This document shows, piece after piece, positions 970 through 61,650 of a DNA stretch of 64,000 bases; within the stretch, counting starts at the first letter, position 1; each line of letters opens with the position of its first letter. The stretch lies in the NCBI RefSeq assembly GCF_900890425.1, contig NZ_CAAHFG010000003.1, positions 62,001 through 126,000 on the forward strand. The letters run 5' to 3'. Origin of the DNA: Pontiella desulfatans (GTDB lineage: Bacteria > Verrucomicrobiota > Kiritimatiellia > Kiritimatiellales > Pontiellaceae). The notes beneath the pieces are model-generated. The model made no database searches. It had not been told where the DNA came from and saw nothing but the letters and a program-made list of their open reading frames with translations. A program made the position numbers and the translations under genes.

Positions 970-1038
970 TTTGGCGGAAAAAACCACTATTTTGGCGGAA
1001 TAAACCAAGCCGGATCTTTCAGTGTATGAGAAAACGTT
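970..1038 (+). promoter_or_regulatory. Composite promoter/operator, copy 1 (paired TTTGGCGGAA boxes)
   Basis: TTTGGCGGAA occurs at 970 and again at 991, exactly 21 bp apart on the same helix face, each followed by an A/T-rich step and CCA. TATG and AAAACGTT follow at 1025 and 1031. The same layout lies before the sulfatase operon at 2342. The direct repeats look like sites for an AraC-type activator, and the AAACGTTT core like a LacI-family half-palindrome; both are inferences. The PEP-CTERM gene starts 77 bp downstream. The bases between 845 and 969 hold no recognisable gene. Confidence 0.55.
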
Positions 1039-1114
1039 TATTCCATTGGGGAGCTTCGTCTTTGAAGGGGCACCCGTTTGGTTGAAAAAAAAACCATATG
1101 AAAAGGAGAAAAAA

Positions 1115-1912
1115 ATGAAGAAGGTTTGCATTGGTTTGGCAATGGCGATGGCCGCAACGATGGCTTTAGGGGCCAGAATTGATACGACCGGTGACGGGAG
1201 CTGGACGAATACGCCGGTGGTCTGGTCGGGTGGTGTCCCGGGAGCAGCCGATACGGCGCGGGTTGGTCACGACGTAACGCTCAATACCGATTCTGTGATT
1301 GTAGATAAATTGACAGTTGGGCGTGGAACTGTTGGCGTTCTGACGATATCCAGCGGTGGAAACCTCATTGCCAGCAACGGTGTTACTATTGCCGACACCG
1401 CTGACGGAACGCTTATTTTGAATGGCGGTCAAATGAGCGTTATTAATGGTGGTTTGACCCTTGGCGCTGACACAGAAGTTGGAACCTTAACATTGAATAC
1501 TGGCTCTATTGATGCCAATACCTTGGCCATAGGTACTGATAGAAACGCACCGAGCACAGTGAACCTGTTCGGGGGGACTTTTACTGTGAATAATGCTGCT
1601 GGGTTGGGCATCAAAAATGGTGGTAGTGTGTTGAACATCCAAAACGATGCGCAGTTAATCCTCGCTGGGGATGCGTTGGCCGCTATAGACGGCTTTGCGC
1701 TCACTAAAATTTTGTGGGCTGACGGCTCGGGGATGGCCGGCATTGGTGACAGCACCTGGGATAATGGCAGTGGATCCTATCTCCACGCTGAATTCGATGG
1801 AACGAACACCACGGTCTGGACAAACGAAACCATTCCGGAACCGGCGACGCTGGGGCTGGTTATGATGACGGCTACCGGTTTGTTGGTGATTCGCCGCAGA
1901 TTTATGCTCTAA
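1115..1912 (+). CDS. PEP-CTERM sorted autotransporter-repeat-like surface protein
   Basis: A 265-residue protein, taken to start at the ATG at 1115 because AAAAGGAG lies just upstream and a signal peptide (MKKVCIGLAMAMAATMALG) begins there. The middle consists of Gly/Asn/Thr-rich short strands (LTVGRGTVGVLTIS, GTLILNGGQMSV, GTLTLNTGSID) typical of a right-handed beta-solenoid, like pectate-lyase or autotransporter repeats. The end is a PEP-CTERM anchor: PEPATLG, a hydrophobic segment (LVMMTATGLLVI) and RRRF. Such proteins are processed by exosortase during export and attached at the cell surface or in extracellular matrix; the exosortase itself is not in this window. Single gene followed by two terminator hairpins. 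No ligand or enzyme activity is evident. Confidence 0.8.
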   Translation: MKKVCIGLAMAMAATMALGARIDTTGDGSWTNTPVVWSGGVPGAADTARVGHDVTLNTDSVIVDKLTVGRGTVGVLTISSGGNLIASNGVTIADTADGTLILNGGQMSVINGGLTLGADTEVGTLTLNTGSIDANTLAIGTDRNAPSTVNLFGGTFTVNNAAGLGIKNGGSVLNIQNDAQLILAGDALAAIDGFALTKILWADGSGMAGIGDSTWDNGSGSYLHAEFDGTNTTVWTNETIPEPATLGLVMMTATGLLVIRRRFML

Positions 1913-1929
1913 CGGGACGGGAGAAACGA

Positions 1930-1956
1930 ACAGGAAATGGAATATTTTCCTGTTTT
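1930..1956 (+). terminator. Hairpin terminator 1 after the PEP-CTERM gene
   Basis: ACAGGAAA (1930-1937) pairs with TTTCCTGT (1946-1953), with an 8-base loop and a T run. It lies 18 bp after the stop codon. Confidence 0.55.
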
Positions 1957-1969
1957 AGAACTCTTCGAG

Positions 1970-2007
1970 CGCAACCTGATTTTTGTTAATCAGGTTGCGT
2001 TTTATTT
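1970..2007 (+). terminator. Hairpin terminator 2 after the PEP-CTERM gene
   Basis: CGCAACCTGAT (1970-1980) pairs perfectly with ATCAGGTTGCG (1989-1999), followed by TTTTATTT. It is a strong intrinsic terminator in tandem with the previous hairpin. Confidence 0.8.
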
Positions 2008-2341
2008 GGTGCTGCCTAGGGTGATTCACTAACCCCGATTGCAGATATTTAACAAAATAATTTTGGGCACTGTGTGCAGGTTTGAGGAGGAGAAGGTAGC
2101 GCCTGGACTCAGCGAAATATGAGCGTGGGCCTGGCTGGCCGTGCGTCAGAGTGCGCCGGATCTACGCTCGCTTAGGCGATCTAAGTTCAGGCGGTACTGC
2201 CTATCTGCGGTCAGAACGTTCATGACTCACAGGCTTGTTTTTCTTTTCATATTTCAGGTCATGAGAACTTCTCATTTATACAGTTAAACCTCGGCTCGCA
2301 GAGCCAACTCAGGCAAGCGGCTGTTTCGAACGAATTGGGTG
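2008..2341. other. Intergenic stretch without recognisable gene
   Basis: About 330 bases between the terminator pair and the next promoter. No frame has a start, ribosome site and protein-like composition. The 2090-2200 part is richer in G+C than the surrounding spacers and may be a gene relic, but I cannot identify it. Confidence 0.4.
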
Positions 2342-2411
2342 TTTGGCGGAATATGCCACGGTTTTGGCGGAAAATCCCAAGCTGTTTTATTATAGGATAT
2401 GGGAAAACGTT
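2342..2411 (+). promoter_or_regulatory. Composite promoter/operator, copy 2, before the four-sulfatase operon
   Basis: TTTGGCGGAA at 2342 and 2363 (21 bp apart), TATAGGATATG around 2391-2401 and AAAACGTT at 2404. The second box lies 41 bp before AAAACGTT, against 40 bp in copy 1. The sulfatase start codon is 36 bp downstream of AAAACGTT. The conserved spacing suggests both genes answer to the same regulator. Confidence 0.6.
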
Positions 2412-2446: not shown

Positions 2447-3913
2447 ATGTTTAAAGGACTCATGGCCGGTGTTGCACTGGCCGCACTTTGTATCGCACCG
2501 GTTTTGGCGGAAGAGAAACCGAATTTTGTGATTGTGCTGGGGGACGATGTCAGCTGGTCGAGTTTCGGTTGTGTTGACGGGGGCTTGTATACCCGAACCC
2601 CTCACATCGACAAGCTTGCGACGCAGGGGGTTCGTTTCGCGAATTTCTCCTGCTCCGGGGCCCAGTGCAGTCCGACGCGGCATGAGCTTTATACCGGATT
2701 GCTGCCACCGACCAGTGGTGTTTATTCCAATGGGAACAAGCCTGCCGGAAACTATAAAAACATGGCCCATTATCTGAAAATTTTAGGATACAACGTTGGC
2801 TTGACGGGGAAGACCCATTTCGACACATCTGAGTTTGAAACGGTTTCCGGGTTTACAGTCGGTGCGAATGAGAACGCACCGACCTGGGAGTTGAGTGGGG
2901 TGAAACAGTTTATCGAAACCGCTCAGGCCGGGGAAAAACCCTTCTGCATGGTTATTGCTTCGGTGCACGCGCACCATCCGTGGACGATTGGGGATGTTTC
3001 TAATTTTCCGTTGGATAAGATGGTCGTGCCGCCTCACATGGTTGACGGCCCGGTTACCCGCGAGGCGCTGGCCATCCACGCGGCGGAGGTGGAAGACCTG
3101 GATAATCAGGTCGGCGCGACGATGAAGCTGCTTGATGAGATGAACCTCAGCGACAATACCGTCTTGATCTTTCTGAGCGAGCAGGGAACGGCCATGCCGA
3201 ACGGAAAATGGTCGGTCTATGATTACGGTACGAAGGCGTTGTGCCTGGTGCGCTGGCCGGGAAAACTCAAACCGGCGGTCACGGACGCGGTCGCGATGTA
3301 TTGCGACATTGTTCCTACGATGGTGGAAATGGCGGGCGGAGAGGTGCCGGTGGTGGACGGCAAGAGTTTAGTTTCCGCTCTCAAAGGGGAAACCTCGGAC
3401 CATCGCGAGCACGCTTATATCGTTAATCAATTCGGCGGCTTTACGCAACGGGCCATTCGGGACAAGGAGTATAAGTTCATTTGGACCCCCGAGCAGGAGA
3501 ATGATTACTACCTCAGCGTTTTGATGGACCCCAAGAGCGGCAAGTTTTTCGCGAAGGCCTGGCGCGAGTGGCTGGAAATCGCGAAAACCGATCCTGATGC
3601 CCAGGCGAAAATCGATCGCATCGTGAAACAACCGGAATTTCAACTGTTTAACATTCAAAAGGATCCATGGGAGGTGGATAACCTCGCTGAGAATCCTGAA
3701 TACGCGGGGAAAGTAGCCGAGATGCATGCCCGGCTGAAGGCCGATATGGAACGGTTGAATGATTCATTCTCATTCGTGGATCCTAAAGCCGCTAAAAAGG
3801 CTCAAAATGCAAGTGCTGAGGAAAACGCCAATGCCGGGAAAAAGGGGAATGCGGATAAAAAGAGTCGTGCTGAAAAAAAGGCCGAACGGAAAAAGAAGAG
3901 AGAGCAGAAGTAG
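2447..3913 (+). CDS. Secreted sulfatase, C-S-P-T-R type with S-E-Q-G metal motif
   Basis: The ATG at 2447 has AGGAG nine bases upstream; a TTG three bases earlier is less likely. A signal peptide ends around VLA-EEKPN. Family S1 features: metal-binding Asp pair in VLGDDVSW, the formylglycine motif C-S-P-T-R with Cys74 (Thr in place of the usual Ser), and LSEQGT-x-x-PNGKW where many sulfatases have S-D-N-G. The E-Q form is known to me from heparan-N-sulfatase-like S1 members that also keep a K-W after it. The last 40 residues are a Lys/Glu/Ala tail (KKAERKKKREQK). Role: hydrolysis of sulfate esters or N-sulfates on a polysaccharide outside the cytoplasm; the Cys needs a maturase such as anSME. 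First of four genes, four bases before the next start. Confidence 0.88.
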   Translation: MFKGLMAGVALAALCIAPVLAEEKPNFVIVLGDDVSWSSFGCVDGGLYTRTPHIDKLATQGVRFANFSCSGAQCSPTRHELYTGLLPPTSGVYSNGNKPAGNYKNMAHYLKILGYNVGLTGKTHFDTSEFETVSGFTVGANENAPTWELSGVKQFIETAQAGEKPFCMVIASVHAHHPWTIGDVSNFPLDKMVVPPHMVDGPVTREALAIHAAEVEDLDNQVGATMKLLDEMNLSDNTVLIFLSEQGTAMPNGKWSVYDYGTKALCLVRWPGKLKPAVTDAVAMYCDIVPTMVEMAGGEVPVVDGKSLVSALKGETSDHREHAYIVNQFGGFTQRAIRDKEYKFIWTPEQENDYYLSVLMDPKSGKFFAKAWREWLEIAKTDPDAQAKIDRIVKQPEFQLFNIQKDPWEVDNLAENPEYAGKVAEMHARLKADMERLNDSFSFVDPKAAKKAQNASAEENANAGKKGNADKKSRAEKKAERKKKREQK

Positions 3914-3916
3914 ACT

Positions 3917-5389
3917 ATGAAACACGGAATTAAATCACACGTTGCAATCGCGATCGCCGCGGCCTCGATATGCACGGCAGTTGTCGCGAAAGCGGAGCGT
4001 CCCAACATCGTGATCATTTTTAACGACGATCAGGGCTATCAGGATCTGGGGTGCTACGGCTCGCCTGATATTAAAACACCGCGGGTCGACCAAATGGCCG
4101 CAGAAGGGATGAAGTTTACGGATTTCCTGGTGGCGTCTTCAGTTTGCTCGCCCTCGCGTGCCGCGCTGCTGACGGGGTGTTATCCGAACCGCGTGGGTGT
4201 GCCGAGTGTCTATTTTCCAGATCGTGGAAAAGGCGGGCTGGAGCCCGAGCATGTAACGATCGCGGAAATGCTGAAGACGGTGGGGTACAATACGGCGGCC
4301 GTAGGCAAATGGCACCTCGGCGACGAGCTGAAATATCTGCCGACCAACCAGGGCTTCGATTCCTATTATGGTATTCCCTACAGTAACGACATGTATCCGG
4401 CATCCACCATGAAATACGCGGACGACTGCCTGTTCCTCGAAGGCCAGAGCCACGAGACACTGAAAGAAGCGTACGCCGGCAAGCTGCGCAACGGGAATCC
4501 GATTTCACTGAAAAACAAGGTGCCGCTGATGCGCGGCGAAGAGTGCATTGAATTTCCGGCGGATCAGACGACGATCACGCGCCGTTTTACGGACGAGGGC
4601 ATCGTATTTATTTCCGAGAGCGTGAAGGAGGAGAAGCCCTTCTTCCTCTATCTGGCCCATTCGATGCCCCATATCCCGTTGTTTGTTGCTCCTGAATTTG
4701 AAGGCAAAAGTGAACGGGGTCTTTATGGCGATGTGATTGAGGAAATCGATTTTAACACCGGTCGTATTCTGGATCACCTCAAGACCCTGGGCATCGAGGA
4801 TAATACGCTTGTGGTCTTTACCTCGGACAATGGACCGTGGTTGATCATGAAGGAAAACGGCGGAAGTGCCGGACCGCTTTTTGAAGGAAAAATGACCACG
4901 TTCGAGGGCGGGCAACGCGTTCCCTGCATCATGAAATGGCCGGGGCATATTCCCGCCGGAACCGTGTGCGATGAGCTGGCCTCAACTATCGATTTGATGC
5001 CTACATTCGCGGCGATCACCGGAGCGGCACTGCCGACGGTTCAGCCCCTGGATGGAAAAAATATTCTCGACCTGCTGACGAGTCAACCCGGCGCGAAATC
5101 TCCGCATGAATTTTTCTTCTACGGCCAGGCTGCGGTTCGCCAAGGGGATTGGAAATATCATGCCAGGGAACACTTCAAGGTGAAGGAAACCGCCCGTGAG
5201 CATAAAGGTCCGACGCTCTACAATCTGAAGGACGATATTGGGGAATCAAATAACGTGATCGATGAACATCCGGAAATTGCCGCACGTCTCGCCAAGGTGC
5301 TGGAGTCCAATCCGAACAAACGCGTCGACGATGGAAAGGCTGTGAGCACGAAGGATAAGAACAAAAAGAAAAAGGGTAAGAAGAAGTAA
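3917..5389 (+). CDS. Secreted arylsulfatase A-like sulfatase (C-S-P-S-R)
   Basis: 490 residues with signal peptide (MKHGIKSHVAIAIAAASICTAVVAKA). Motifs in order: FNDDQGYQDLGCYG (metal site), VCSPSRAALLTG with Cys77 as the formylglycine precursor, GKWHLGD, YLAHSMPHIPL and TSDNGPW. This is the standard architecture of arylsulfatase-A-like S1 enzymes, whose natural substrates are usually sulfated glycans. It ends in a pure Lys tail (KNKKKKGKKK). It follows the upstream sulfatase after three bases, so it is co-transcribed, with 189 bp before the next sulfatase. The exact sugar position cleaved cannot be read from the sequence. Confidence 0.9.
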   Translation: MKHGIKSHVAIAIAAASICTAVVAKAERPNIVIIFNDDQGYQDLGCYGSPDIKTPRVDQMAAEGMKFTDFLVASSVCSPSRAALLTGCYPNRVGVPSVYFPDRGKGGLEPEHVTIAEMLKTVGYNTAAVGKWHLGDELKYLPTNQGFDSYYGIPYSNDMYPASTMKYADDCLFLEGQSHETLKEAYAGKLRNGNPISLKNKVPLMRGEECIEFPADQTTITRRFTDEGIVFISESVKEEKPFFLYLAHSMPHIPLFVAPEFEGKSERGLYGDVIEEIDFNTGRILDHLKTLGIEDNTLVVFTSDNGPWLIMKENGGSAGPLFEGKMTTFEGGQRVPCIMKWPGHIPAGTVCDELASTIDLMPTFAAITGAALPTVQPLDGKNILDLLTSQPGAKSPHEFFFYGQAAVRQGDWKYHAREHFKVKETAREHKGPTLYNLKDDIGESNNVIDEHPEIAARLAKVLESNPNKRVDDGKAVSTKDKNKKKKGKKK

Positions 5390-5578: not shown

Positions 5579-7174
5579 ATGAAAACACATAAGAAATCTA
5601 CTCTTTTGGTTGCTGCAGCTTCACTTCTTCTTGGGAGTGTGGCCGCCGCAAATTCGAAGCCCAATATTGTTTTTATTCTGGTGGATGACATGCCGTGGTA
5701 TGGAACCGCGACCATGCAGGAGGAAGGCTTTGGTGGATCGGCGATGAAGTGGCGGAATACACCGAATATCGATACCATCGGTAAAGAAGGCATGGTGTTC
5801 GCGAACGCGTATTCGGCCGCCGGTATGTGCGGGCCGTCGCGGTGCAGTATTCAAGTGGGAATGACGGCCGCCAGAACCCGCTATAGCGGAAATGGAAACT
5901 TTGGTGACGACTGCACATTTGAAGTGAGTTACATCGAAAAGGTAAAAGGGGCGCCTTTCCTTGAACCGGAGCCCATGGGATCGATACATCCGGATTTTAA
6001 AACCATGGGGGATGTGCTGAGAGAGCAGGGGTATGCGACTGCGCATTTTGGTAAATGGCATGCCTATGGCGGTGGACCCGAGGCGCGTGGTTATGACGAG
6101 AGCGATGGCGAAACCTCGAATGCCGAAGGTGGCCCTCAACTGTGTACGGATCCGAAAGATCCGAAGCGGATTTTCAGTATGACCCGCAGCAGTATTAACT
6201 TTATCGAGCGCCAGGTCGCATCGGATAAGCCCTTCTTTGTCCAGATCTCACACTACGCGGAACACAACCAGCAGATGAGTTTGCCGGAGACCTTGAAAAA
6301 ATACACCGGCAACCCGGAAATCAAAGCCATGGAGAAAAGTGTGGCCAGGGAGGTGGCGACGCATGCCGCCGCGGTCGAGGATATGGATACGTCCATCGGT
6401 ATGGTCATGAAGAAACTCGATGAACTCGGCATCAGTGATAACACGTATGTCGTATTTACCTCCGACAATGGTAAAGGGCTGTATAACGGCAAAGACCGGA
6501 TCCTGCGCGGTGAAAAATGGTGGCTTTGGGAAGGAGGCATCCGGGTGCCGATGTCGATGAAAGGTCCAGGGATTTCTGCTGGGTCGCGCAGCTGTCTGAA
6601 TGTGGTCGGTTATGACTTCCTTCCAACGTTTTATGATATAGCCGGCGGCGATGTGGCCCGTCTTGAGAATGTCGATGGAGTAAGCATCATGCCGATTGCC
6701 AAGGGTGGAAATGTCAAAGGTTTTAAAGACCGGGCCCTGTTCTTCCACTATCCGCACCATCGTAACACCACACAGCACTCTGTGATTATTAAGGACCACT
6801 ATAAGCTTTTTAACTTTTATGAACTGCCGGAGCCGTATCTGTATGACCTGAAGAAGGATATCGGCGAAGTATCCAACATCGCAGGACAGATGCCGGAAAA
6901 GGTACAGCAGATGAAGAGTGAAATGGACGCCTATCACAAGCGTATCGACGCGCTTTTGCCTAAACCCAATCCGAACGCGTCTGAAAATTATGTCCGCTTT
7001 GATCCGGCTGTAAAAGTTCCGCCTGTCTGTGATCTGGTCGACGGAAAATTGCCAAAGCTGGATAAGAGCAAAGGGCAGGCGCCGGAGGAGAATCAGAGCC
7101 AAGAAAAAATGAGCAAAGAGGAGAAGAAAAAGGCGAGAGAGGAAAGAAGGAAGAACAAGAAGGCGGGTGTTTAA
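5579..7174 (+). CDS. Secreted sulfatase, C-G-P-S-R type
   Basis: 531 residues starting at the ATG at 5579, with AAGG about nine bases upstream. A signal peptide (MKTHKKSTLLVAAASLLLGSVAAA) precedes FILVDDMPWYG. The signature is MCGPSRCSIQVG with Cys84. GKWHAYGGG and TSDNGKG follow, then a C-terminal D-x-x-E-x-S-N-I module. The tail from about residue 500 is Glu/Lys rich (KEEKKKAREERRKNKK). Third gene of the operon; the 189-bp spacer before it contains a run of A but no convincing terminator. It is predicted to act on sulfated glycan in the periplasm or outside the cell. Confidence 0.9.
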   Translation: MKTHKKSTLLVAAASLLLGSVAAANSKPNIVFILVDDMPWYGTATMQEEGFGGSAMKWRNTPNIDTIGKEGMVFANAYSAAGMCGPSRCSIQVGMTAARTRYSGNGNFGDDCTFEVSYIEKVKGAPFLEPEPMGSIHPDFKTMGDVLREQGYATAHFGKWHAYGGGPEARGYDESDGETSNAEGGPQLCTDPKDPKRIFSMTRSSINFIERQVASDKPFFVQISHYAEHNQQMSLPETLKKYTGNPEIKAMEKSVAREVATHAAAVEDMDTSIGMVMKKLDELGISDNTYVVFTSDNGKGLYNGKDRILRGEKWWLWEGGIRVPMSMKGPGISAGSRSCLNVVGYDFLPTFYDIAGGDVARLENVDGVSIMPIAKGGNVKGFKDRALFFHYPHHRNTTQHSVIIKDHYKLFNFYELPEPYLYDLKKDIGEVSNIAGQMPEKVQQMKSEMDAYHKRIDALLPKPNPNASENYVRFDPAVKVPPVCDLVDGKLPKLDKSKGQAPEENQSQEKMSKEEKKKAREERRKNKKAGV

Positions 7175-7175
7175 C

Positions 7176-8813
7176 ATGATCAAAAAACCCATAACAATTG
7201 GAATGGTTGCCGGAGCATTGCTGGTGGCGAATGCGCTAGCGGCGGAGAAACCGAATATCATCTTTTTCATTGTGGATGATTACGATAAGGCCGAGACCAG
7301 TGTGTACGGTGGGAATGTACTGACCCCGAACCTGGAGCGCATGGCAAAAAACGGCCTGACCTTTAACAATGCGCATATGACCAGTACGGTCTGCACACCG
7401 TCCCGCTATACCTGTATGACCGGACGGTACGCCAGTTCATCCTATTCGGATGCGCTTTACGCGGAATGCCCGGAAGGAACCCAGACCTTGCCGGCCTTTA
7501 ATGTCGCGCTTGAGCCGGATAATATGAATGTGGCCCGGGTTTTGGCCGACAACGGGTACGTTACCGGGATGATCGGTAAGTTCCACGCGGGCGGACATCA
7601 TGTTGAGGGGGGCGAAGCGGATATTCCCCAAAATACGCCGTATACCGATGAGTTGAATGAGAAGCAATATCGGCTCGAAAAACAGCACCGCGAAACGATC
7701 AAGTCGTTTGGCTATACCTGGGCGAAGAATATTTATATGGGCAACACGAAAGCCCCGTTTAAAGGACACAACCCGGAGTGGACCATCAGCGCTGCGCTGG
7801 AATTTGTCGAAGAGTTCAAGGATGAACCCTTCTTCCTGTACTACGGCACCACACTGCTGCATGGACCCAACAAATCGTGGTATCAGTCGTTGAAGGAGCC
7901 ACTGGTTAGCGATGAAGGAATGCTGGAAAAACCGCTTGGGCTGATGGATCGCGAGTCGGTGATCACCCGATTGGAAGCCGCCGGGATTGATCCGGAGGAA
8001 AATGCCGGTTACCTGTGGATGGACGATACGCTGGGCCTGCTGCTTGATAAGCTCGAAGCGCTCGGTATTGCGGACAATACATTGGTCTGTTTTGTGGCCG
8101 ACCACGGCTCGAAGCGTAAGGGTTCTCTCTACACGATCGATGGAACGGAAGTGCCGTGTATTATCAGCTGGCCCGCGGGCCTTAAAAAAGACGTCGTTAC
8201 AGAGGAGCTGATCCAGAATACCGATTTTGTGCCGACCTGGTTTGAGCTTGCAGGGGCAAAGCTGCCCGAGGGCTATAAAATGGACGGCGTGAGCATGGCT
8301 CCGCTGTTCAGGGATCAGAAGACCCCGATCCGCGATTATGTCTTCAACGAAATGGGTGCTTCGCGGGCGGTCAAGACCAAAGAGTGGAGTTACATGACCC
8401 TGCGTTATACGACCGATCAGGTGGAGGCCATGCGCAATAATGAAAAAATGATTGGAAAAACGCTCACTGGCTTGTCGGGGGGGATTTCACGCGGTGCGAG
8501 CAATCCGAACGCGGTGAGTTACAACCAGCTCTACAACCTGAAAAGAGACCGTGCCGAAACGAACAATCTGGCCGATAACCCGGAGCATGCCGGGACAGTA
8601 AAAGAACTCCGCGCGATGCTCGCCAAAGAGCTGCTGACGTTTGAAGGCCGCCCCTACGGTGAGTTCGTGCCCGGTGGTAATGCTCTGGCCGCTGGAGCCT
8701 ATGACGATATCCTGGCGAAAATAAAAAAACACCAGGAAAATCCTGTCTCAAAGAGGGAGAAGAAGAAGGAGAGTAAAAAGGCGGGTAAGAAGGGAAGAAG
8801 GAATAAAGAATAA
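7176..8813 (+). CDS. Secreted sulfatase, C-T-P-S-R type
   Basis: The chosen ATG at 7176 lies one base after the upstream stop; it opens a good signal peptide (MIKKPITIGMVAGALLVANALA). Motifs: FFIVDDYDKAETSVYGG, VCTPSRYTCMTGRY with Cys73, GKFHAGG, LYYGTTLLHGPNKSW and FVADHGSKRKGSLY, so the second metal site is D-H-G rather than D-N-G. About 545 residues, longer than typical because of an insert after the GKFHAGG motif. It ends with a Lys/Arg tail (KKESKKAGKKGRRNK). Last gene of the four-sulfatase unit, followed by a strong terminator. Confidence 0.9.
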   Translation: MIKKPITIGMVAGALLVANALAAEKPNIIFFIVDDYDKAETSVYGGNVLTPNLERMAKNGLTFNNAHMTSTVCTPSRYTCMTGRYASSSYSDALYAECPEGTQTLPAFNVALEPDNMNVARVLADNGYVTGMIGKFHAGGHHVEGGEADIPQNTPYTDELNEKQYRLEKQHRETIKSFGYTWAKNIYMGNTKAPFKGHNPEWTISAALEFVEEFKDEPFFLYYGTTLLHGPNKSWYQSLKEPLVSDEGMLEKPLGLMDRESVITRLEAAGIDPEENAGYLWMDDTLGLLLDKLEALGIADNTLVCFVADHGSKRKGSLYTIDGTEVPCIISWPAGLKKDVVTEELIQNTDFVPTWFELAGAKLPEGYKMDGVSMAPLFRDQKTPIRDYVFNEMGASRAVKTKEWSYMTLRYTTDQVEAMRNNEKMIGKTLTGLSGGISRGASNPNAVSYNQLYNLKRDRAETNNLADNPEHAGTVKELRAMLAKELLTFEGRPYGEFVPGGNALAAGAYDDILAKIKKHQENPVSKREKKKESKKAGKKGRRNKE

Positions 8814-9080: not shown

Positions 9081-10214
9081 TCAGTGTTCTAGGGATGGCT
9101 TATCCGGTTCGGCAAGACGGTAGCTAGTGCTACGTCCGCCACCGGGATTCTGGATAATGAGCCCCATGTCGAGTAGGGCGCGAATATCCCGCAGGGCAGT
9201 GTCGGTGGAGCACTTGGCGAGCTTTGCATATTTGGAGGTGTTTAGGTGGCCCTCAAAACCGTTCAGCAGTCGGGTAAGGACTTGGTGTTGCCGGTCATTT
9301 ACTTTTACGGAGTTGGCTTTTTCCCATATACGGGCTTTGCGCAGGACTCCGGCTAGCGTCCCTTGCGCTCTATCGATAGTACGCCCCAGGCACTCGAGGA
9401 ACCAAACCAGCCAGCGGGTGATGTCGAGCGTTCCTCGTTGGCTGTTTTTCAGGCTGTCGTAGTATGCATGACGTTCTGATTCGATCTGCGCGGACATGCT
9501 GTAATAACGCTTCGATGATTCGTCGGCTCTTGCCAATGCCAGTTCAGCGACAGCGCGTGCGATCCGGCCGTTGCCATCAGAAAATGGATGGATGGTGACA
9601 AACCAGAAGTGGGCAATGGCCGCTTTTATAACCGGGTCAATTTCCAAAGGCTTGTTGAACCACTCTAGAAAGGTGGCCATCTCGCCCTTAAGCTTTTCGG
9701 CTTCGGGAGCTTCGAAATGGACTTTTTCCCGTCCCATCGGACCGGAAACAACCTGCATCGGTCCACCTTCAGGTGGACGCCACGCTCCAACGGTTATGTC
9801 CCGCATTCCGCTGCGGCCCGTTGGGAAGAGGGCGGCATGCCAGCCGAACAACCGATCTTCGGTCAGAGGTTTTGAATAGTTTGTAGTGGCATCAATCATC
9901 ATTTCGACAATGCCGTCGATATGGCGTGCAACCTGGGGCGATCCTCCAATATCCATACCCAGATGACGGGCAATGGATGAGCGGACCTGTTCCGGATCCA
10001 GCCTCTCCCCTTCGATCGCGCTGGACTGGACAATGTCTGAGGTCAATGTGATCAGGTTTGCTTCTTCCTGGAGATGATGAAGTTTGAAGCCCTGCAGCTC
10101 CATTTGGCCAAGCAAACGTCCCTGCCTATAGCGTAAGTCAGCAAGCAGGGGAATAAGCCTTTCCGAATCCCACTGGAACTCGGGCCAATTGTTTAATTGA
10201 TGTATATACTTCAT
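9081..10214 (-). CDS. Fic family protein with inhibitory helix and winged-helix C-terminus
   Basis: 377 residues from the ATG at 10214, which has GGAG eight bases upstream; a GTG at 10220 is the alternative. The Fic core motif is HPFSDGNGRIAR (about residues 209-220), a complete HPFx[D/E]GNGRxxR, so AMP or another nucleotide group can be transferred to a protein target. SSAIEGE near residue 64 matches the inhibitory (S/T)xxxE(G/N) helix on the N-terminal side (class II Fic, self-inhibited). The C-terminal 80 residues (STDTALRDIRALLDMGLI) form a winged helix, so the protein may bind DNA. Its start region is covered by inverted repeats, which suggests autoregulation. Target unknown. Confidence 0.9.
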   Translation of the reverse strand: MKYIHQLNNWPEFQWDSERLIPLLADLRYRQGRLLGQMELQGFKLHHLQEEANLITLTSDIVQSSAIEGERLDPEQVRSSIARHLGMDIGGSPQVARHIDGIVEMMIDATTNYSKPLTEDRLFGWHAALFPTGRSGMRDITVGAWRPPEGGPMQVVSGPMGREKVHFEAPEAEKLKGEMATFLEWFNKPLEIDPVIKAAIAHFWFVTIHPFSDGNGRIARAVAELALARADESSKRYYSMSAQIESERHAYYDSLKNSQRGTLDITRWLVWFLECLGRTIDRAQGTLAGVLRKARIWEKANSVKVNDRQHQVLTRLLNGFEGHLNTSKYAKLAKCSTDTALRDIRALLDMGLIIQNPGGGRSTSYRLAEPDKPSLEH

Positions 10215-10295
10215 AATCACCGCTCCAATTGCGGTGATTAGGGGGCTTATTCACCGCAAGATCAAGATTTATTCACCGCATTATCTGCGGTGATT
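10215..10295. promoter_or_regulatory. Operator array of five GCGGTGAwT half-sites upstream of fic
   Basis: Palindrome 1: AATCACCGC (10215-10223), 7 bases, GCGGTGATT (10231-10239). Palindrome 2: ATTCACCGC (10271-10279), 7 bases, GCGGTGATT (10287-10295). A lone half-site ATTCACCGC lies between at 10249-10257. Palindrome 1 covers the ribosome site and abuts the Fic ATG. The identical 9-7-9 geometry points to one dimeric DNA-binding protein, probably the winged helix of Fic itself. Confidence 0.7.
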
Positions 10296-10582
10296 GTGCG
10301 GCTGTTCTCCGATATGCTCCACTGGATCGTGGTGGATTATGACGGTATCGCCTTCACCCACCGCTTCCCCCTCCCGCCCGGCCATGGCGCGTCCATCTCG
10401 CAAGCTCGCTGTCCACGCCCCTGGCCCCCGCCCGGGAACCGGGGCTCCTCGCGCTCGGGTTTTGAAGTGTCGCGCTCCGGAACGGCCACTCGGCGGCTAC
10501 CCTGCGGGGCAGGTGGTGTATGTTTGGACTTGCCAACCCTATTGTTCGATGTATTGTACATAGTCATACAGAAGGGAAGAGG
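10296..10582. other. Spacer between fic and the HigB-like pair, with possible promoter
   Basis: No supported gene. A GC-rich stretch (10360-10510) is followed by TTGCCA near 10527 and ATGTATTGTACAT around 10549-10561, a short palindrome that could be the promoter/operator of the toxin-antitoxin pair. An in-frame extension of the toxin frame back to 10290 exists but has no protein-like features. Confidence 0.35.
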
Positions 10583-10922
10583 ATGCCAGTGGTTACATTT
10601 GTGGAGACCAGCGTATTTACCCGTAGAATCGCAGGCATTCTCGATGACGATTGCTTTGCGGACTTTTCAGGCGGAACTGGCGCGCAATCCAGAAAAGGGG
10701 CCGGTTCTTGAAGGAACCGGCGGCCTGCGCAAAGTCCGATGGAAGTTGCCGGGTAAAGGTAAAAGCGGCGGTATTCGCATCATTTATCTGCATCTGAAGC
10801 TGAGAGGACGCATTTATCTTGTCTTCGTTTTTGCCAAGGATGAAAGCGATAACCTTACAGCTTCACAAAAGGCTGAGCTGAAGAAACTGGTGGAAGCCAT
10901 TAAGAAGGAGTTCAGGAAATGA
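10583..10922 (+). pseudogene. HigB/RelE-type toxin gene with +1 frameshift in a T4 run
   Basis: From the ATG at 10583 (GAAGGGAAGAGG upstream) the frame reads MPVVTFVETSVFTRRIAG-LDDDCFADF and then leaves homology. One base later the other frame gives FQAELARNPEKG-P-LEGTGGLRKVRW, GKSGGIRIIYLH and FAKDESDNLTASQKAELKKL, the standard HigB2/RelE-like toxin body. Removing one T from the run at 10664-10667 joins both parts into a normal toxin of about 112 residues. The family cleaves mRNA at the ribosome. As written the product would be truncated after about 36 matching residues. The stop overlaps the antitoxin start (ATGA), a typical higBA order. A sequencing error in the homopolymer is possible. 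Confidence 0.75.
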
Positions 10923-61464: not shown

Positions 61465-61540
61465 GACCCCTTCGTCTAGTGGCCTAGGACTCCAGGTTTT
61501 CATCCTGGCAACACGGGTTCGAGTCCCGTAGGGGTCGCCA
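61465..61540 (+). tRNA. tRNA-Glu (UUC), copy 1
   Basis: 76 bases with encoded CCA. Acceptor GACCCCT/AGGGGTC, anticodon stem CCAGG/CCTGG around loop TTTTCAT (anticodon TTC), T-loop GGTTCGAGTCC. The D-arm is GTCTAGTGGCCTAGGAC. Confidence 0.97.
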
Positions 61541-61574
61541 TTTTCTAATGGTGCTTCGGAAAAAACCTTCTAGC

Positions 61575-61650
61575 GACCCCTTCGTCTAGTGGCCTAGGAC
61601 TCCAGGTTTTCATCCTGGCAACACGGGTTCGAGTCCCGTAGGGGTCGCCA
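61575..61650 (+). tRNA. tRNA-Glu (UUC), copy 2
   Basis: Identical to copy 1 over all 76 bases, 34 bp downstream. Same anticodon TTC and encoded CCA. Confidence 0.97.

Follow-up and report, generated by a model that had tools for sequence, protein, structure and literature searches.

The double boxes that stand before a PEP-CTERM surface protein gene and a four-sulfatase operon in Pontiella desulfatans are very probably operators through which a local two-component system of HTCS-like type would activate one gene cluster from class-II-like promoters. The window analysed here, the whole stretch of 64,000 bases, corresponds to C3:62001-126000 of the source genome (G000; 8,658,305 bases). The earlier note had described two TTTGGCGGAA boxes with a 21-bp period before each of the two transcription units, and its positions proved to be exact; the distances of 40 and 41 bp that it gave from the second box to AAAACGTT, which occurs exactly at 1031 and 2404, were confirmed as well. 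The features of this region, in window coordinates, are as follows.

970..979, + strand: operator box 1 (TTTGGCGGAA) of the PEP-CTERM gene, exact match
991..1000, + strand: operator box 2 of the PEP-CTERM gene, 21 bp after box 1, exact match
1005..1011, + strand: CCAAGCC, with CAAG fixed at 15 bp from the start of box 2
1025..1039, + strand: TATGAGAAAACGTTT, putative -10/start region with conserved TWTGRGA
1115..1912, + strand: PEP-CTERM surface protein gene (TIGR02595 above the cut-off), with its ATG after AAAAGGAG
1967..2002, + strand: terminator-like hairpin with a 15-pair stem, separating the two transcription units
2342..2351, + strand: operator box 1 of the sulfatase operon, exact match
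2363..2372, + strand: operator box 2 of the sulfatase operon, 21 bp after box 1, exact match
2398..2411, + strand: TATGGGAAAACGTT, putative -10/start region with conserved TWTGRGA
2447..3913, + strand: sulfatase 1 (PF00884)
3917..5389, + strand: sulfatase 2 (PF00884)
5579..7174, + strand: sulfatase 3 (PF00884)
7176..8813, + strand: sulfatase 4 (PF00884)

The Pfam PEP-CTERM profile places the product of 1115..1912 just below its cut-off. TTTGGCGGAA occurs a fifth time at 2503, within the coding sequence of sulfatase 1 at the end of the signal peptide (VLAEE), and is an incidental decoy there. Within the window, lone copies of the box occur at a frequency near chance, while the paired arrangement is above chance.

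A pattern search of the 8.66-Mb genome for TTTGGCGGAA-N11-TTTGGCGGAA with at most 3 mismatches, using the reversed pattern as a control, gave 9 matches. Six of these have 0-2 mismatches and a common CCAC-type spacer, and lie on a single strand within C3:47343-64372.

C3:47343, 48388, 54160, 57218, 62970 and 64342, one strand: the six G000 sites of the pair scan

Because the scan places six sites there, the two sites in the window are the last two of a 17-kb cluster, in which each site precedes a gene or operon and faces it. The other three matches carry 3 mismatches each, which is the noise level of the control (2 hits). The dispersed regulon of sulfatase and glycosidase genes envisaged by the earlier note is not supported by the same scan, which confines the pair to this single cluster. 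In G021, a second species of the genus, six sites lie at C2:305758-323733, in the same order along its cluster. Four exact pairs in IMG/VR are without the common spacer and the downstream block, and were therefore treated as chance occurrences; pairs with 1-2 mismatches in other relatives also lack the spacer and resemble the reversed-pattern control. A search of genome contigs returned mainly Bacteroidota relatives, and Rfam gave no match to an RNA element.

Candidate regulators are encoded at the head of the cluster, upstream of and outside the window.

C3:43282-46467: sensor histidine kinase with PF07494 (Reg_prop), PF00512 (HisKA) and PF02518 (HATPase_c)
overlapping the end of the kinase gene: response regulator RR1, Response_reg + HTH_18
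C3:47570-48352: response regulator RR2, Response_reg + HTH_18

The first site is situated between the two response regulator genes and the second immediately after RR2; ahead of the kinase gene and of RR1 no site was found, the best pair there having 8/20 mismatches. RR1 and RR2 share 85% identity with nearly identical recognition helices, and orthologues with at least 84% identity are present, among 97 genomes, only in G000 and G021, the two carriers of the motif. The best PDB match of RR2 is an HTCS protein, aligned over the full length (residues 3-257, E 2.6e-51), and a profile search agrees. Since the kinase and RR1/RR2 are separate ORFs rather than a single polypeptide, the system falls outside the strict definition of an HTCS. 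Other hallmarks are present: the Pfam domains of the kinase combine a Reg_prop beta-propeller sensor with HisKA and HATPase_c, the receiver and HTH_18 domains can be aligned end to end with an HTCS regulator, and direct repeats stand at linked glycan genes, exactly 21 bp apart at all 12 sites of the two species. The system would be HTCS-like in its working, in a split form, and is not categorically new. The AraC-type pair is a strong candidate for the single regulator that the earlier note expected to coordinate the PEP-CTERM gene and the sulfatases; the proposal of an activator on direct repeats is also supported, activation being what we infer. Beside these genes, the ORF preceding the kinase (C3:42210-43229) resembles an IS transposase with a zinc ribbon at its start; a 330-aa frame with the same start recurs at C3:37201-38193 and L044:3675-4667, suggestive of a repeated element.

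The conserved unit is longer than first noted. Alignment of the 12 sites (6 from G000 and 6 from G021) on their boxes gives TTTGGCGGAAATCRCCACTGTTTTGGCGGAAAAAMCCAAGCC, a short variable stretch and then TATGRGAAAACGTT, so that the unit consists of the boxes, CCAAGCC and TATGRGAAAACGTT. A matrix of the first 45 columns carries 73 bits; all 12 sites score above 61 bits, and no other position exceeds 8 bits in the window and the surrounding 42-45 kb of the clusters in both species. The TGGCGG core of box 1 and CCAAGC are invariant in 12/12 sites, and CCAAGCC is likely to be the second half of half-site 2, or the -35 zone. Orthologous sites of the two species show 84-97% identity in the double box and 82-100% in the next 11 bases, as against mostly 20-45% in the flanks; at site 54160 the upstream side is conserved as well, and consists mostly of the last part of the gene in front. 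TGTTTCGA is found exactly 20 bp upstream of box 1 at both window sites (950-957 and 2322-2329) and in their G021 orthologues, and is absent from the remaining sites; it may be an additional element or have been left by a duplication.

TWTGRGA is also present in 12/12 sites, and box 2 begins 34 or 35 bp upstream of it. The 1-bp difference falls between CAAG and TATGRG, with the distance from box 2 to CAAG constant at 15 bp, and such spacing fits a class-II activator touching -35 with ordinary 1-bp spacer variation. TATGRG, the putative -10, is unusual in lacking the final T, which makes the promoter register a guess; matches in a sigma-70 scan were no commoner than chance. AAAACGTT itself is kept in only 7/12 sites and drifts between orthologous promoters. 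Elsewhere in the 8.66 Mb, TATGRGAAAACGTT (1 mismatch) has four matches, three of which read as ATG gene starts, while the fourth lies at C3:502421. Because of this partial retention, and because the matches are mostly gene starts, AAAACGTT is probably part of the -10/start region instead of a second operator.

From the gene content and the motif layout, we propose the following course of events. The periplasmic beta-propeller of the sensor kinase would detect a glycan fragment, presumably from a sulfated glycan, and the kinase would phosphorylate both RR1, whose gene is coupled to its own, and RR2, the two being near-identical proteins with AraC-type DNA-binding domains. A regulator dimer would then occupy both direct repeats, which are separated by two helical turns and share one face of the helix, with the second half-site overlapping the -35 region, and would recruit RNA polymerase to the weak -10 (TATGRG...) 34-35 bp downstream of box 2. 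AraC acts likewise at class-II promoters, by recruitment of RNA polymerase. Six promoters would be switched on together, serving RR2, a surface protein, sulfatase units, the PEP-CTERM protein and the four-sulfatase operon. Since the RR2 gene has a site and none was found for the kinase and RR1 genes, RR2 would amplify the response.

Upstream of the window sites, the cluster holds more sulfatase units and surface-like proteins, and it is plausible that all targets are parts of one sulfated-glycan programme. Several other features were observed in the window. At 437-781 a GH43 gene ends early, after 114 residues; its syntenic counterpart in G021 is intact, with a frame of 332 aa. The sulfatase operon is followed directly by a gene for a Fic/DUF4172 protein at 9081-10220 (-), which stands beside a RelE-like toxin gene at 10290-10922 (+), and two tRNA-Glu (TTC) genes stand in tandem at 61465-61650.

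The earlier note had considered a promoter of composite type, with an activator bound to the boxes and a LacI-type regulator to AAAACGTT. AAACGTTT is indeed a palindrome with a CG centre, which is typical for LacI-family operators, and AAAACGTT stands at a near-fixed distance where it is kept. A LacI operator should nevertheless recur at every site, and AAAACGTT is missing in 5/12; conservation falls instead on the asymmetric TWTGRGA columns to the left of it, a clear second copy of TATGRGAAAACGTT outside coding sequence is lacking from the 8.66 Mb, and no LacI gene was recognised in the annotated parts of the cluster. We consider this arrangement very improbable and have abandoned the LacI-type site on account of its loss, its drift among orthologues and the near absence of other genomic copies. 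A similarly low probability is assigned to repression by the same two-component system. The conserved block does extend into the presumed start region, but the position of the boxes relative to the presumed -10 resembles class-II activator sites, and the established role of HTCS is to activate glycan loci (PMC3878776).

Dozens of AraC-type domains are encoded in the genome, and the boxes might instead be bound by some other regulator, for example another AraC-type protein, in which case the two-component system beside them would be coincidental. This seems hardly probable, however, since the motif and the regulator orthologues co-occur in the same 2/97 genomes, one of the sites separates RR1 from RR2, the sites occur nowhere but in the cluster, and paralogous regulators elsewhere also adjoin repeats. 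Least probable of all, and by our estimate very remote, is a repeated cassette, i.e. a mobile repeat or a recently duplicated promoter free of regulatory selection. The upstream 25 bp are alike in some sites, as with TGTTTCGA at both window sites, and transposase-like ORFs are nearby; yet paralogous sites of one genome are 81-90% alike in the element, with a mean of 85% in the double box, versus 23-29% beyond it, and both species retain the element at six orthologous places, always facing the downstream gene. Operators of the local two-component system remain the preferred reading.

Related regulators in Kiritimatiellae were surveyed at 14 other loci, where the stretch after the regulator gene was examined for a direct repeat of at least 9/11 bases at 21 or 22 bp. 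Such a repeat occurs at 6/14 loci, compared with 0.9 expected and a maximum of 4 in 200 shuffles, while pairs of spacings without 21 and 22 reach at most 3 loci; the other 8/14 have no clear repeat at this threshold, and L169, one of the six, sits in repetitive sequence. Downstream of the L169 regulator (G172), TAGACTGTGGA occurs twice, 21 bp apart, amid further short repeats, and may be unrelated to regulation. The box sequences vary from locus to locus. Among the other loci, perfect TTTTGKCG pairs occur only at L072 (G023) and L044, intergenic and after the regulator in both cases, and these two regulators have the same R[ST]LQRK recognition helix; no perfect pair is present in 61 kb of window background. 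L073, L071 and L169 have a similar helix and no TTTTGKCG pair. This correspondence between helix and box, seen at few loci, noticed post hoc and with exceptions, is suggestive. It might even be, although we are more inclined to doubt it, that Kiritimatiellae possess a whole family of split and fused sensors of this type, that every one of them has a 21/22-bp double box of its own, that the box tracks the recognition helix (R[ST]LQRK with TTTTGKCG) so closely that regulators could be matched to targets by sequence, and that in the present cluster two paralogues share an operator with RR2 as self-amplifier.

P. desulfatans is one of two strains reported to have about 500 sulfatases each (PMC7356697), and sulfatase regulation is not mentioned in the papers searched on both strains, including PMC7356697. 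Knowing the operator and the regulator of one cluster would offer a route to pair sulfatase clusters with their sensors and, by way of induction, with their substrates, and would extend the 21-bp HTCS operator rule beyond Bacteroidota. For the HTCS of Bacteroides thetaiotaomicron, 16 motifs have been predicted, which are direct repeats on average 21 bp apart and have been interpreted as binding a dimer on a single face of the DNA (PMC3878776). The Pontiella system shares with them the receiver plus AraC-type regulator, the beta-propeller sensor kinase, the 21-bp direct repeat, the location of the regulator in a glycan locus and an own box for each paralogue. It differs in its separate kinase and regulator, its two regulator paralogues and its class, Kiritimatiellae; moreover, its targets are mainly sulfatases and PEP-CTERM proteins, and as far as the cluster was annotated, no SusC/SusD was recognised. 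Judged by these predicted parts, a design familiar from gut Bacteroides is very probably at work here in a marine Kiritimatiellales bacterium. The same genome also encodes a fused form.

G000 C1, L045:3772-7758: fused HTCS, a 1329-aa protein

L045 has the same domains and its own, 22-bp-spaced repeat downstream, but they are fused in one protein and the box is another (TTCGGYTGAGT). A further parallel is AraC at E. coli araBAD (araI1-I2), where two direct half-sites lie 21 bp apart and the second is near -35. The Pontiella double box has the same layout, with direct half-sites at 21 bp and the second close to the presumed -35; AraC, however, is a one-component sugar sensor that is not phosphorylated, whereas the Pontiella candidates are response regulators of a two-component system.
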